DNA of 25,202 nt. It comes from a virus. The stretch lies in the IMG/VR virus record IMGVR_UViG_3300038619_000063, positions 1-25,202 of that record; one strand, written 5' to 3'. The translations under genes were made by a program, and so were the position numbers. Each line of letters begins with the position of its first letter. The first letter of the stretch is position 1. A model generated the notes under the pieces. That model was not told the DNA's origin. It made no database searches and was given only the letters and a program-made list of their open reading frames with translations. Below, piece after piece: positions 5,312-24,358 of this stretch.

Positions 5312-5587
5312 CCAGCTTCCCCAGCGTTGCATGTATGAATATATTTCATGGATCTGATCTAATCCAAGCTCGGCGCATAAGGCCGCATCTCTAATGACGG
5401 CCTCATGTTCTTCTCTTCCTCGGATGTTAACCCATTTTACTTGAGGTAATTCACTCGAGGGATTTTTTCTAACGAGATTTAAATGGGTGTTATGTTCTTT
5501 AAACTTGCAAGGGCAGCCTGGAGTACACACGTTTTCAAGAGTATATTGCGCATCAATCTTCTGGTAACCTGTATTCCTCGCCATCAT
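5300..5587 (-). CDS. Unknown protein downstream of partition genes
   Basis: 95 residues from the ATG at 5587 (a TTG immediately before and a second ATG at 5584 are alternatives). It contains a CTPGCPC cluster near residues 21-27 and a following His (EHNTH), a possible metal site. A helical C-terminal half follows, with GREEHEAVIRDAALCAELGLDQIHEIYSYM. The start lies inside the end of the RHH gene (35-bp overlap), so it belongs to the ParA-RHH transcript. Function unknown. By position it could be a third partition or maintenance component, but this is inference. Confidence 0.7.
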   Translation of the reverse strand: MMARNTGYQKIDAQYTLENVCTPGCPCKFKEHNTHLNLVRKNPSSELPQVKWVNIRGREEHEAVIRDAALCAELGLDQIHEIYSYMQRWGSWLSK

Positions 5588-5807
5588 CAATTACTTCTCT
5601 CAACTTTCCGTATAGTGCTTCTATAATCCATTGCGTTCTATTTACCCATGGTTTTTTTCTTTTCAAGAAGGCATCCAATTCCATTAAAATGCTCATTGGT
5701 ATTCTTATTAAAACCGTCTTGAATTCCATCTCTTTAATTGCCTTAACTTCAGCCCCTTTGTCAATAAATCTTTCTGTTTCTTTGTTTATTTTTTTCTTGA
5801 CTACCAT
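5553..5807 (-). CDS. Ribbon-helix-helix DNA-binding protein, ParA partner
   Basis: 84 residues. A basic N-terminal tail (KKKINKETERF) precedes a ribbon strand FKTVLIRIP (about 29-37), a helix MSILMELDAFLKRK and a second helix beginning NRTQWIIEALYGKL. This is a classic MetJ/Arc layout. Small RHH proteins with unstructured basic tails (ParG, omega, CopG-like) are the DNA-binding partners of ParF-type ATPases. It lies 36 bp downstream of the ParA gene. A 16-bp sequence upstream of its start recurs upstream of parA, a likely operator. Its acidic C-terminus is also typical of small repressors. The partition role is inferred from the pairing. Confidence 0.75.
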   Translation of the reverse strand: MVVKKKINKETERFIDKGAEVKAIKEMEFKTVLIRIPMSILMELDAFLKRKKPWVNRTQWIIEALYGKLREVIDDGEEYRLPED

Positions 5808-5843: not shown

Positions 5844-6479
5844 TCAGCTATATACAGCCATGTAGAGATCTAGCATCTCTAAACATGCTTTTTTATCTGG
5901 ATGAAGCATTTCATGAACTCCGAGTCCTTCGGCAGCTGCATTTCTAAATGCCTTGCGGTTTCCAATAGTACAATCAAACGTCTCAATCTCGGTGAATTCT
6001 TTTAAGATTTCTTTTGCCTCTTGATTATCCTTTCCTGAAGCATCTGCTTGAGTAATGACTGCACAAATCTTTAGTTTTGAATTAAGACATTCCGACAAAA
6101 TTCCCTTGATAGGAACAAGTGTCCAGATGTCTATCGAACTTGGTTTAAAAGGAAGAATTAACTTATCTGCGACAGATAAGGCCGAACGCTGGGATGTTGT
6201 ATCTCTTCCACCTGTATCCACGATGATATCATCAAAGTCTTCTTGAAGGCGTTGAAGATTTGAATAAATAGCCTTTCCTGACATGCATACAGTCGAAAAG
6301 GTTCCCTTTAAAAGATCAGGTTCGCAAGTATCCCTTTGCTGCGACCAATCCCATGCACTTTTTTGCTCGTCTGCATCTACCAGTAAGATTTTCCTACCCA
6401 TAGTACGAAGAACGGCCAGATTGGTCGCTATCGTTGTTTTTCCGCTACCACCCTTGATACCACCGACTACAATAATCAT
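5844..6479 (-). CDS. parA: ParA/ParF-type partition ATPase
   Basis: 211 residues, about the length of ParF (Ib) ATPases. It starts directly with the deviant Walker A motif GGIKGGSGKTT (about 6-16), including the signature lysine. LLVDADEQKSAWDW (about 32-45) is the ParA A' region, and DDIIVDTGGRD (about 83-93) is Walker B. No N-terminal HTH domain is present, so autoregulation would fall to the RHH partner encoded 36 bp downstream. Such ATPases position plasmids or phage-plasmids on the nucleoid. MinD-like functions are an alternative, but no C-terminal amphipathic helix is evident. AGGAGAT gives a strong ribosome-binding site. Confidence 0.88.
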   Translation of the reverse strand: MIIVVGGIKGGSGKTTIATNLAVLRTMGRKILLVDADEQKSAWDWSQQRDTCEPDLLKGTFSTVCMSGKAIYSNLQRLQEDFDDIIVDTGGRDTTSQRSALSVADKLILPFKPSSIDIWTLVPIKGILSECLNSKLKICAVITQADASGKDNQEAKEILKEFTEIETFDCTIGNRKAFRNAAAEGLGVHEMLHPDKKACLEMLDLYMAVYS

Positions 6480-9351: not shown

Positions 9352-9485
9352 GCTCTGACGCAGCGATACGTTTAAAGAGTCTTCCGGCCAAAAAATTGGA
9401 TCGTTGTTGCGGATAAGCCACCTCTACCATAGATATTTATTAACTTTATGCTGTAGGATAAAATTTATTATAGGCAAGGAACTAA

Positions 9486-9749
9486 ATGACTGAAAAATCG
9501 CAGATCCCACAAGATGATTTAATGGATGTCATGGAAATGACACAGAAAATAGAAAAATACATAACGAGGGTTCTTCGGGATCAAGATCCTCAACTAGCCT
9601 TTTCAGCCCTGATAAGCGCCAGCATTAATTGCCTATTTGCTCAATGCAAAACCTTTGAGGAAGTTGTGTTCTACAGGAATCTTTTTATAGAAATCTTAGA
9701 TAGATCAATACGCATGATGAAGATTAATAAGCCTGAGAAGCCTAATTAA
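9486..9749 (+). CDS. Small helical protein of unknown function
   Basis: 87 residues, all predicted helix: an acidic N-terminus (DDLMDVMEMTQKIEKYI), a hydrophobic middle (FSALISASINCLFAQC), and ITRVLRDQDPQ between them. GGCAAGGAACTAA supplies a good ribosome-binding site. It is a lone plus-strand gene between minus-strand blocks, and its stop shares TTAA with the convergent gene's stop. The 134 bp upstream are AT-rich and could hold its promoter, though I cannot place one with confidence. Function unknown. Confidence 0.65.
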   Translation: MTEKSQIPQDDLMDVMEMTQKIEKYITRVLRDQDPQLAFSALISASINCLFAQCKTFEEVVFYRNLFIEILDRSIRMMKINKPEKPN

Positions 9750-17782: not shown

Positions 17783-17896
17783 ATTTTCAAGCTATGCAAT
17801 AAAAAAGTTTCTAGTCAAGCGATGTGGTAAAGTATATACAAATTCATTTAATTATTTTCCCTTGTGTAAATGTTACATGTTGTGTCATATTGTTCA

Positions 17897-17964
17897 ATAG
17901 AATGACAAAGAAGTCATCGAAAGGAGACAAATAGAATGACAAAGAAGTCATCGAAAGGAGACAA
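17897..17964 (+). repeat. Perfect 34-bp tandem duplication over the leader of the 17966 gene
   Basis: 17897-17930 and 17931-17964 are identical. Each unit contains an ATG, ten sense codons (MTKKSSKGDK) and AAAGGAGAC. In copy 1 the short frame ends at TAG. In copy 2 it reads straight into the next gene. Only copy 2's AAAGGAGAC is correctly spaced for the ATG at 17966. Confidence 0.9.
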
Positions 17965-17965
17965 A

Positions 17966-20051: not shown

Positions 20052-20999
20052 TTAATCGGTCGCGTGCTTAAGTTCAACAATTTTATTTTTTTCTCGCATG
20101 TTTTTCGTTCTGATAAAATCCTCGCATCTCTGCTGAAATTGCCCATCGCTAAAAGCTACAAAAAAAGGTTCAAGATAAGAATATGAAGGCTCAAATAAAA
20201 TTCCCCGTTGATCTTTCTTTTTGTCATGGTAGAAATAACATCTCCATCCCCGGCCATTTTCATGTTCGGGAAATTCCTTGCAAAATTGTTCTGCAAGTTT
20301 CTGAGTGTTTTCTTCAGGTTTTTTTGTTTCCTGTGAGTCTTTTTTCACCTGGTTGAATACCCAGCCCCCTTCCTTCATCGTGTGAAAATCAGATTTGTAA
20401 ACTTTCCCTGTGCTGCCTTTGAACGAATCGAGCTTATCCATCATGAGATTTAGAAAATCTGATCCATGCTTTGCAAGCAATGAGTCATGTTCGACTTGAG
20501 TCAGTTCAACGAATTCCCTAAATTTAATTTTTGACAAAGAAGGGGTATGGGGTTGTTCTTCTTTCTTATCATTCTTTTTCTTTCTTATTCCTTCTTGTTT
20601 GTTGTCGTTCAGTTGTCGTTCAGTTGTCGTTCGGTCGTCGTTTCGGTTGTCGTTTGTTTCTGAATTTATGTCATAAACCGTTGAGCTTATTAACTCTACG
20701 ATGGTGGATTCAGTTGTCGTTCCAGTCGTCGACTTTTGACGTGTTCTGTTCGTTTCAATAATTTTTATATGATTTCTTGAAATGAGCATTTTTTTGGCGG
20801 CTCGATATTCCCCTTCCGTTAAGCCGTATTTATATGAAGCCTTTAAATGACATTGACCAACCATCAATCCATCGGGTCCTCCGTTAGATCGACGAGCTGT
20901 ATTGGCGATTTGAGAAAGCAGATAAAATGCATTGGGCTTATGTTGCATTAGCCAGAATGCTTCATCGGAAGGAATGAACTTTAGAAATCTTTCTGACAT
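20052..20999 (-). CDS. Phage replication initiator with internal origin
   Basis: 315 residues from the ATG at 20999, chosen because GGAG lies 6 bp upstream; a start at 21011 would lie inside the hairpin. N-terminus (about 1-100) resembles winged-helix replication proteins (SDEAFWLMQHKPNAFYLLSQIA, then GLTEGEYRAAKKMLISRN). The middle is a T/N/D/K-rich linker coded by 11-bp DNA repeats. Residues about 160-220 (FREFVELTQVEHDSLLAKHG, then LMMDKLDSFKGSTGKVYKSDFHT) match the C-terminal module of DnaD-like and phage replisome-organiser proteins. Organisation parallels lambda O: initiator gene carrying its own iterons. Confidence 0.75.
   Translation of the reverse strand: MSERFLKFIPSDEAFWLMQHKPNAFYLLSQIANTARRSNGGPDGLMVGQCHLKASYKYGLTEGEYRAAKKMLISRNHIKIIETNRTRQKSTTGTTTESTIVELISSTVYDINSETNDNRNDDRTTTERQLNDNKQEGIRKKKNDKKEEQPHTPSLSKIKFREFVELTQVEHDSLLAKHGSDFLNLMMDKLDSFKGSTGKVYKSDFHTMKEGGWVFNQVKKDSQETKKPEENTQKLAEQFCKEFPEHENGRGWRCYFYHDKKKDQRGILFEPSYSYLEPFFVAFSDGQFQQRCEDFIRTKNMREKNKIVELKHATD
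20601..20722. repeat. 11-bp iterons inside the initiator gene, candidate origin
   Basis: GTTGTCGTTC occurs at 20601-20610, 20612-20621, 20623-20632 and 20713-20722. GTTGTCGTTT lies at 20646-20655 and the variant GTCGTCGTTTC at 20634-20644. Spacing is 11 bp, about one helical turn and not a multiple of three. Next to the array, 20553-20600 is an AT- and pyrimidine-rich stretch that could open. Confidence 0.65.
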
Positions 21000-22509: not shown

Positions 22510-23280
22510 ATGGCTAATGAAGTAACAAAAAAAGAAGATTTTTCGGCTATCGAGCTGGTTGTCATGCAAGGAGATCTCTCTAAGCTGACTGCCGAACAAA
22601 GGCTGAAATACTATAACAGTGTGTGCGAAAGTGCTGGGTTAAATCCCCTGACGAATCCTTTTGCCTACATACAGCTCAATGGTAAATTGACTCTGTACGC
22701 TAAAAAGGATTGCACCGAGCAGCTCAGAAAAATAAACGGTGTTTCAATCGAGGGACTCGATGATAAGATCATCGACGATCTCTACATTGTAAAAGCCCGG
22801 GCAAAAGATAAGACTGGACGGCTAGATGAATCTACGGGTGCCGTAGTCATCGGTGGCTTAAAGGGTGAGCAACGCGCCAATGCCATTATGAAAGCCGAAA
22901 CTAAGGCTAAAAGAAGGGTAACATTGAGCATCTGCGGCATGGGCTGGGTTGATGAATCAGAGATTGATTCAATACCGAATGCAAAGCCTATTCCTGTGGA
23001 TCTCAAGACAGGTGAAATTATTGAGGCTGTAAAGCAAGAAGCTAAAACAGAAGTTGAAGGACTCATAGGAAAGGAGGAACTCTTAGCAATGACGAATCTA
23101 TTAAAGAATCTTGACGAGGAATGCAATAAATCCTTTCTTGCTTCGATAAAAACGATATTCAACGCGACAAGTCTTCAGGAAATCCCTAAGTCTGGTTTCG
23201 AGAAGTGCATGACTTCTATTAACAATAAAATTAAGTACCTGAACGACAAAAATAAAGAACACATGGAGATCGCTGTATGA
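22510..23280 (+). CDS. recT: RecT-like single-strand annealing protein
   Basis: 256 residues. VVMQGDLSKLTAEQRLKYYNS (about 13-33), AGLNPLTNPFAYI, LTLYAKKDCTEQLR (about 63-76), LKGEQRANAIMKAETKAKRR and LSICGMGWVDESEI are the run of motifs I know from phage annealing proteins of the RecT/Redbeta type. The C-terminal third is a charged helical extension. It anneals complementary ssDNA ends exposed by the YqaJ exonuclease encoded one gene downstream. AAAGGAAGGAAATT supplies the ribosome-binding site. An alternative single-strand-annealing family of similar role is possible. Confidence 0.82.
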   Translation: MANEVTKKEDFSAIELVVMQGDLSKLTAEQRLKYYNSVCESAGLNPLTNPFAYIQLNGKLTLYAKKDCTEQLRKINGVSIEGLDDKIIDDLYIVKARAKDKTGRLDESTGAVVIGGLKGEQRANAIMKAETKAKRRVTLSICGMGWVDESEIDSIPNAKPIPVDLKTGEIIEAVKQEAKTEVEGLIGKEELLAMTNLLKNLDEECNKSFLASIKTIFNATSLQEIPKSGFEKCMTSINNKIKYLNDKNKEHMEIAV

Positions 23281-23492
23281 AAAGAGAAAATTTAATTAAA
23301 ATACTTTGCCACTTGACAACATCATGTGAGGAATTTGAGACAGAGTTATCTTCTTTCGTCTATGAATTTTGTGAAAGGAAATACGAAGGACAAGTCAAAA
23401 GAATTAATGGTAGATTCATGAACTTTGAAATAAAAGATGCAGGACAAGCCACAAACGAAAAAAATAAAGAAAAATTGGAAGTGTCAGTATGA
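23277..23492 (+). CDS. Small protein between annealing protein and exonuclease
   Basis: 71 residues, overlapping both neighbours by 4 bp (ATGA at both ends), so firmly in the recombination operon. Helical, with three cysteines (CHLTTSC, then EFCER) and a very charged C-terminus. No recognised domain. Might be a regulator or ssDNA partner of the pair; inference from position only. Confidence 0.7.
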   Translation: MKRENLIKILCHLTTSCEEFETELSSFVYEFCERKYEGQVKRINGRFMNFEIKDAGQATNEKNKEKLEVSV

Positions 23493-24358
23493 AAATAATT
23501 AACGTAGAACAAGGTTCACCTGAATGGCTCGCCTGGAGAAAGACAGTCATTACCGCAACGGAAGCATGTATCCTTTTGGGAAACAATCCTTGGAAGGACA
23601 CCCCCTATAAATGCTGGCAAAGAAAGCTGGGATTGTTGGAAGAAAAGAAATCCAACGATGCTATGGAAAGAGGTAAAAGACTTGAACCTTTCATTAGAGA
23701 AAGGTTCATAAAGAAACAGGGCATCAATATGACTCCCACTGTGGTTGAGAGCTCAGAGTATAGTTTTCTAGGGGCATCATTGGATGGACTTTCCGATTGT
23801 GGCAAGTATATCCAAGAGATTAAAACTGGTAAGGAGAGTCTTTATCAAGCTGCGCTAGAGGGAATTATTCCCATGTACTACATGAACCAAGTGCAGCAAC
23901 AATTGCTTGTGACGGGAGCCGAGAAATGCTTCTATACCGTGGGAAGTGAAGACGTGGAAAAGGATGTTACCATAGAAGTTTATCCTGATCCAGACTTTGA
24001 AAAAGCTTTCATTCCTGAAGCCCGAGCGTTCTGGAAATGCGTTGCATTCAGTGAGCCTCCAGCTTTGCAAGATGCAGACTACAAAGACATGTCTGGTGAA
24101 TCTAATTGGAATTTCCATTCATCGGAATACCGAAAGGTCGATGAAATGATTAAGGAACTGGAAAAGGTCAAGGAAACCCATAGAAAAGAGCTCATAAAGA
24201 TCTGTGGAGATCAAAGCAGCTTGGGAAACGGTGTTAAGGTGATGAAGACAAACGTACGCGGCCGTGTGGACTATGAAGCGATTCCTGAACTAAAAGTGAT
24301 CGACATAGATAAATACCGTAAAGCTTCTACTACTACGTGGAAGATTCTCGTTGCGTAA
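23489..24358 (+). CDS. YqaJ-type viral exonuclease
   Basis: 289 residues. EQGSPEWLAWRKTVITATEA (about 7-26), MERGKRLEPFIRERF (about 59-73), SFLGASLDGLSD (about 91-102) and the active-site IQEIKTGKE (about 107-115) are the hallmarks of the YqaJ/lambda-exonuclease PD-(D/E)xK fold. Asp98, Glu109 and Lys111 are the probable catalytic set. It digests one strand of dsDNA ends, giving RecT a substrate. Length is normal. A helix-rich C-terminal end follows (EMIKELEKVKETHRKEL). The operon ends at the hairpin at 24364. Confidence 0.88.
   Translation: MKIINVEQGSPEWLAWRKTVITATEACILLGNNPWKDTPYKCWQRKLGLLEEKKSNDAMERGKRLEPFIRERFIKKQGINMTPTVVESSEYSFLGASLDGLSDCGKYIQEIKTGKESLYQAALEGIIPMYYMNQVQQQLLVTGAEKCFYTVGSEDVEKDVTIEVYPDPDFEKAFIPEARAFWKCVAFSEPPALQDADYKDMSGESNWNFHSSEYRKVDEMIKELEKVKETHRKELIKICGDQSSLGNGVKVMKTNVRGRVDYEAIPELKVIDIDKYRKASTTTWKILVA

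Follow-up and report, generated by a model that had tools for sequence, protein, structure and literature searches.

The 25,202-nucleotide stretch of viral DNA analysed here (the window) contains an initiator gene whose linker-coding DNA carries a tandem array of 11-bp direct repeats. The array is under selection as DNA, occupies the same place in related genes, and varies from gene to gene in unit bases that covary with recognition-helix residues of the protein encoded by the same gene. The repeats are very probably iterons bound by the phage's own initiator, which together with an adjoining A-rich element would constitute a replication origin nested between the DNA coding for the winged helix-turn-helix (wHTH) domain and that coding for the C-terminal domain. 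Covariation of recognition-helix residues with unit bases ties the repeats to the protein of the same gene.

Initiator gene and predicted protein

The first-pass annotation had taken the gene for an initiator, and this is borne out by a match to the PHROG 'replisome organizer' profile PHROG_13246 (E 3.3e-15) and by a predicted wHTH domain. The profile match covers residues 145-227 only, and the same profile also matches 4/22 members of alignment A2; no Pfam family, RepA_N included, matched the window protein at E<=0.01. In an AlphaFold2 model (22 aligned relatives), the wHTH domain extends over approximately residues 6-111 and is followed by the C-terminal part, residues 62-63 open the recognition helix, and residues 115-154, which include the array-encoded stretch, have pLDDT <50 and are predicted to be disordered (Table 1). 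A fold search with VIA-align retrieved generic wHTH proteins up to Z 7.5, while the initiator domains 4pql, 4pt7 and 5kbj, of which we take 4pql and 5kbj to be RepA_N-type, scored Z 6.4-7.2, tied with MarR-type regulators and other wHTH proteins. 4PT7 is named in connection with RepA_N-type initiators in PMC7145576. Foldseek used by itself produced no hit at E<=0.001, and sequence profile searches of the PDB gave no relevant relative.

Table 1. Features of the initiator gene, in window coordinates
Feature	Position	Strand	Basis
Initiator gene, 315 aa, start ATG at 20999	20052..20999	minus	ORF translation; PHROG_13246 match
N-terminal wHTH, residues 1-112, conserved wing motif VYDIN at end	20664..20999	minus	AlphaFold2 model, alignment
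Recognition helix, residues 62-74 (residues 62 and 63 = 20811-20816)	20778..20816	minus	AlphaFold2 model; unit-base covariation
Further unit (20713-20722) and weaker one (core 20725-20730)	20713..20730	minus	wing-coding DNA
Tandem array, five 11-bp units	20601-20611, 20612-20622, 20623-20633, 20634-20644, 20646-20656	minus	repeat search, synonymous null
A-rich element AAACAAGAAGGAATAAGAAAGA, 21/22 to family consensus, candidate unwinding element	20579..20600	minus	alignment of relatives; part of 20553-20600
C-terminal part matching PHROG_13246, residues 145-227	20319..20567	minus	profile match

No helicase or helicase loader gene was recognised in the window. Other features there include a region (22510-24358) in which an ORF for a RecE/YqaJ-type exonuclease (Pfam E 5.3e-27) comes after a 256-aa ORF, whose product, judged just from its position and by eye, could be a RecT-like partner; a ParA-like ATPase ORF beside a small ORF (5553-5807 and 5844-6479), judged by eye to be perhaps a partition system; and a perfect 34-bp tandem duplication (17896-17965), which duplicates the start region of a small plus-strand ORF.

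Relatives and sample

Viral relatives were collected by profile searches of uncultivated viral contigs, which gave 34 loci at first and then more, and a genome profile search added five loci, among them some in Verrucomicrobia and Chlorobiota assemblies and in two Photobacterium genomes. No relatives were found by a single-protein search of viral contigs, a first scan of genome contigs, or plasmid searches. Among 50,697 phage records searched by tblastn, the sole convincing relative was gene NVP1177O_71 of Vibrio phage 1.177.O._10N.286.45.E10.

Removal of near-duplicates (L028, L029, L037, L060, L068 and L070; L006 is the same contig as L014) left 48 distinct genes, the window gene included, of which 47 were analysed, with L049 excluded for its missing linker array. 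Repeat contigs were left out (L043-L047, L053, L055-L057, L065, L071-L085, L087, L088, L090, L096-L098, L100-L105, L107-L116, L118-L124, L127 and L128; L104 repeats L092, and L094 and L095 equal L093). The N-domains of the compared genes have a median pairwise identity of 45%, and an 11-bp array follows the wing in 47/48 distinct genes. In the exception, L049 (3001-4014), the linker lacks a tandem array and iteron-like repeats seemingly lie in an enlarged wing loop. In L048 (74-1066), the wing and array module is seemingly doubled within one gene, a second wing end (TYDIN) being followed by a second array.

The 11-bp array

Exact copies of GTTGTCGTTC start at 20601, 20612, 20623 and 20713; the copy at 20646 has one mismatch and that at 20634 has two. 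Six units in the linker, mostly spaced by 11 bp, had been described in the first-pass annotation; there are indeed six, and three of the four tandem steps are of 11 bp (11, 11, 11, 12), but the sixth begins 67 bp past the fifth, outside the linker and in wing-coding DNA, leaving five tandem units. The units are 11-bp direct repeats without dyad. Allowing <=2 mismatches, GTTGTCGTTC has 31 matches in the window against 16.4 expected, a count reached in 1/100 shuffles, and no second GTTGTCGTTC-type cluster was found in the 25.2-kb window, a record that may be a fragment.

On the coding strand, anchored at the array end, the last four units read GAAACGACGAC, CGAACGACAAC, TGAACGACAAC and TGAACGACAAC, in codon phases 1, 0, 2 and 1. 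The repeats had been said to encode differing residues, and the three phases do give NDN, RTTTER and RQLNDN. The phase-0 unit of the window has CGA where a leading TGA would be a stop codon; because an open gene has to avoid a stop, this illustrates the compromise between the two uses of the DNA and does not constitute independent proof of it.

Selection on the repeat as DNA

The lag-11 identity of each linker was compared with a synonymous null of 1000 recodings per linker, their codons sampled in proportion to the codon usage of the gene concerned. The window array has 30/37 bases matching at lag 11, where its synonymous recodings average 18.9 (p=0.001, the floor of 1000 draws), and lag-11 identity exceeds that of synonymous recoding at p<=0.01 in 42/47 genes, the others being L019, L024, L027, L051 and L069. 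Averaged over the 47 genes, z reaches 4.19 at lag 11, and no other lag between 7 and 16 exceeds 1.72. Among 591 stretches of 48 nt from 19 window ORFs, that of the array alone was flagged (z>3 or >=25 matches). The units also change in concert, being largely alike within a gene and different between genes (e.g. CGAGCAACGAC, CGAGCGACGAC, CGAAGGGCGAC, CGACCAACCAC and TGAACGACAAC).

Adjoining the array's end in the coding direction is the A-rich element, with the family consensus AAACAAGAAAGAATAAGAAAGA. It matches this consensus at >=20/22 positions in 15 distinct genes, in 11 of which it is read in frame 0 (KQERIRK) and in four in frame 1 (QTRKNKK). The frame-1 genes (L009, L011, L014 and L019) match at 21-22/22, and their frame differs because they have one 11-bp unit fewer; here the DNA is kept while the encoded peptide changes. 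The synonymous null, this change of frame and the concerted change of all copies uphold the earlier proposal that selection acts on the repeat as DNA. Related genes with the same protein linker and no repeated DNA, which would speak for the contrary, were sought, and the opposite was found, the DNA period being significant in 42/47 genes.

The A-rich element is part of a stretch (20553-20600) earlier noted as AT-rich. At 75% AT against 59% for the window, it falls among the 3.5% of 48-bp windows that melt most readily, but at 7th of 900 start positions in the gene it does not come first. GC skew was considered as evidence of an origin and set aside: its minimum (21909) lies on a plateau (-317, vs -310 at 20600) and coincides with a switch in gene direction, and it therefore neither supports nor refutes an origin at the array.

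Covariation of the recognition helix and the repeat unit

The register of the units was fixed by the element downstream of the array, and was set or corrected by hand in 11/47 genes (L026, L027, L031, L035, L041, L048, L050, L051, L054, L058 and L069). Gln-63 is accompanied by AA at unit bases 6-7 in 28/28 genes, Lys-63 by GG in 5/5, and Arg-63 by GA in 8/9 before correction; in the remaining gene, L058, the register was off by a single base, and with this one correction the Gln/Arg/Lys-63 rule (AA/GA/GG) covers 42/42 genes. L058 counts as a misfit in the association analysis and, with its register corrected, as a fit in the tree analysis below. Gly-63 occurs with GA in all three genes that have it (the window, L014 and L066), while Met-63 with AA and Ser-63 with CG are represented by one gene each among the 47. 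Arg-62 occurs with C at unit base 9 in 7/7 genes, and the remaining 40 have G or A at that base (C in 0/40); the residue-62 rule is one-sided, as Glu-62 goes with either G or A.

When 99 variable columns are compared by corrected mutual information, residue 63 leads for each of unit bases 5, 6 and 7 (base 6: 0.83, vs 0.21 for the next), and residue 62 leads for unit base 9. The pairing of residue 64 with unit base 4 ranks second by this measure, but the association is not clean and no claim is made for it. Shared ancestry was addressed using a tree of the N-domain without the helix columns (92 branches), on which changes were placed by parsimony. Bases 6-7 change on 12/92 branches, and all 12 are among the 14 branches with a residue-63 change (hypergeometric p 2.5e-13, with branches treated as equal). 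Arg-62 and C at base 9 show 6/6 shared changes on the same tree, while all residue-62 states taken together are weakly associated with base 9 (4 shared changes, p 0.03). In the 36 genes anchored automatically, residue 63 is still first for bases 5-7, with 9/9 changes shared and a co-change p of 8.5e-10 vs 1.1e-3 for the next best column, and residues 69 and 62 are about tied for base 9 (0.53 and 0.51, respectively). Within the closely related pair L030/L031, whose N-domains are 91% identical, residue 63 is Arg/Gln and the units are CAAGCGACAGA/CAAACAACAAA; residue 62 differs too.

A prediction was also made, the rule being recorded before two further scans that yielded ten new distinct contigs, which were scored by eye. 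The residue-63 rule held in 8/8 (Gln in L086, L099, L106, L117 and L126; Lys in L089 and L091; Arg in L125) and the residue-62 rule in 10/10 (Arg with C in L086, L092, L093, L099 and L106; non-C in L089, L091, L117, L125 and L126), with the register of L093 resting on the end of the A-run and the array of L125 being irregular. Outside the prior prediction, L092 has Ser-63 with CG, like L050, and L093 has His-63 with AA.

The putative sites in the wing-coding DNA seem to follow the same pattern. A gene's own unit core (bases 6-10) is found in the wing DNA of 44/47 genes: AACGA is present there in 16/16 AACGA-class genes and in 0/6 AACCA-class genes, which carry AACCA instead (6/6), and GGCGA is present in 5/5 GGCGA-class genes. 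The cores are only 5-mers, and non-own cores are also seen in wings, e.g. AACGA in 4/7 GACGA-class genes. Part of the wing peptide (Ser-Thr-Thr vs Arg-Ala-Thr) thus seems to owe its sequence to the binding sites.

In protein-DNA recognition, Gln usually prefers A, Arg and Lys prefer G, and Arg may contact the G opposite a C. We infer that residue 63 reads bases 6-7 and that residue 62 reads the opposite strand at base 9; the Gly-63/GA pairing of the window itself cannot be a side-chain contact. It is likely, judging from these sequence comparisons, that the genes represent a largely undescribed initiator family with a short recognition code operating by direct contact, in which AA, GA and GG at bases 6-7 are specified by Gln, Arg and Lys, respectively, at residue 63 (and CG perhaps by Ser) and C at base 9 by Arg at residue 62, and in which all sites, wing copies included, are rewritten in step with the protein, one gene being both lock and key, read in three frames at its 11-bp step.

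Origin function and alternative explanations

Several alternative accounts of the array and of its covariation with the protein were weighed. A DNA repeat could be a by-product of peptide and codon usage, were the linker selected as a hydrophilic, disordered spacer. Such a protein-level origin of the repeat accords with the hydrophilic linker and its predicted disorder (residues 115-154, pLDDT <50), but has very little probability in view of the lag-11 identity above synonymous recodings in 42/47 genes, the retention of the A-rich element despite its altered frame, and the unit bases that track helix residues. Hardly more credible is slippage duplication of 11-bp units without selection: near-identical units within a gene are what recent duplicates would look like, yet adding or losing one such unit displaces the reading frame, the period and place of the array are kept over N-domains of 45% median identity, the unit bases follow protein residues, and the prediction on new contigs succeeded. 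The association of residues with bases might instead reflect common ancestry or modular exchange and not direct base reading, as residues and units are both common to related phages, and the C-terminal domains differ among close relatives, implying that modules move. The 12/12 base changes on branches with a residue-63 change in the helix-free tree, the lead of residue 63 over other columns in the 36-gene subset (p 8.5e-10 vs 1.1e-3), and the joint difference of L030 and L031 in residues 62-63 and unit despite 91% identical N-domains make this explanation rather unlikely, though it is the most serious of those considered.

Iterons also control copy number in plasmids. The array might accordingly bind the initiator chiefly for regulation, either as an operator or for copy control (autorepression, handcuffing), while the origin lies elsewhere, and the covariation would by itself speak for binding specificity, not for origin function. 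This possibility is given a low probability, because the array lies deep in the gene, away from its promoter, and adjoins a conserved A-rich element, as in the origins of lambda and SPP1 (PMC5043065, PMC6316719), and because the window holds no second cluster, though the record may be a fragment. For the nested array itself, we infer origin function. In the proposed mechanism, one initiator monomer would bind per 11 bp (approximately one helical turn, with a unit lacking dyad), along one face of the DNA, the bound initiator would strain and open the A-rich element, and the C-terminal domain would bring in the helicase or helicase loader. Carried by a single gene, site and reader would travel together and switch specificity together. 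The C-terminal domain (window 20052-20560; also L014 and L016) varies among close relatives while the wHTH remains linked to the array, a pattern that would fit modular exchange of the wHTH-origin unit.

Comparison with known initiators

The first-pass annotation had likened the arrangement to lambda O/ori. The layout is indeed shared: in lambda, too, the initiator gene contains the iterons and an AT-rich stretch, which lie between the parts for a DNA-binding domain and a C-terminal domain that a linker connects (PMC5043065, PMC6022878; record annotation). The likeness does not extend to the iterons, which in lambda are four inverted repeats of 18-19 bp (~19 bp), set at 20-24-bp steps and bound by dimers (PMC5043065), in contrast to the five 11-bp direct repeats and wing copies described here. 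In the same lag test, lambda O gave no lag-11 signal, and at its known steps z rose just modestly, to 2.8 at lag 20 and 2.7 at lag 23, which indicates limited sensitivity of the test where iterons are sparse. The window protein matched no Pfam family at E<=0.01 and no O-like PHROG; among its relatives, O-like PHROG matches were obtained for the Vibrio gene (phrog_678) and for 2/22 members of alignment A2 (phrog_345). The 11-bp format is not general to O-like initiators, since no strong linker lag-11 signal was found in L130 and L132-L135, O-like initiators with a C-terminal part resembling that of the Vibrio gene, or in FP_Brigit (L008); L130 shows a weak lag-11 signal near its N-terminus (z 3.2, 53% identity). 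No array accompanies the short wHTH ORF of Dulem virus 31.

The RepA_N initiator gene rep of pSK41 is similar in that its wHTH N-terminal domain binds four boxes located centrally in its own gene, with an origin-coded dispensable linker and a host-specific C-terminal domain (PMC5703833). It differs in its semi-palindromic boxes, as opposed to 11-bp tandem units, and the window protein has no Pfam RepA_N (PF06970) match. The replisome organizer gp38 (gene 38) of SPP1, compared by description only, binds direct repeats in its own gene beside an AT-rich unwinding element at oriL (PMC6316719); SPP1 also has a second origin outside the gene, whereas the window has no second cluster. In the RepA of the V. 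cholerae PLE satellite, the DNA-binding domain covaries with the origin and the two function only when matched, but this concerns two modules at the domain level and a non-coding origin with ~30-bp semi-palindromes (PMC8263062), whereas the present family offers residue-to-base covariation over 47 genes and a candidate origin inside the gene. The convincing relative among the phage records, NVP1177O_71 of the Vibrio phage, has a homologous N-terminal domain and an 11-bp array (CGACAGGCAAG), is annotated 'hypothetical protein', and is directly followed by a DnaB-like helicase gene.

Within a further group of papers (PMC6669507, PMC7924643, PMC3349717, PMC3985674, PMC7466680), a lambda-like origin is proposed for Francisella phage KIRK ORF43 and six iterons are described in lambdoid Stx-phage O genes, and nothing in these papers was found to be contrary to a nested origin. 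No papers on 11-bp arrays or on a residue-base code in phage initiators were found in the literature searched, which was mostly outside subscription journals. Out-of-frame GAACGACAACC-type 11-bp arrays were also observed in L003 (~1400-1440) and L005 (~9480-9530), in proteins without the motifs of this wHTH family, which suggests that nested 11-bp arrays may also occur in other initiator families; the sequence common to the two proves nothing, as both loci were found by that pattern. On the best reading of these comparisons, an iteron origin nested in the initiator gene is a known layout, and it is the 11-bp direct-repeat format and the apparent recognition code that set this one apart.

Implications

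Within the literature surveyed, a change of partner between initiator and origin has so far been shown just for whole domains (PMC8263062). The present family supplies natural pairs by the dozen, which single out two residues and their matching bases over about a dozen inferred switches, and this makes initiator-origin coevolution testable with natural proteins and oligonucleotides. The code should allow prediction of origins from protein sequence in uncultivated phages, and suggests the existence of natural sets of non-cross-reacting replicons.
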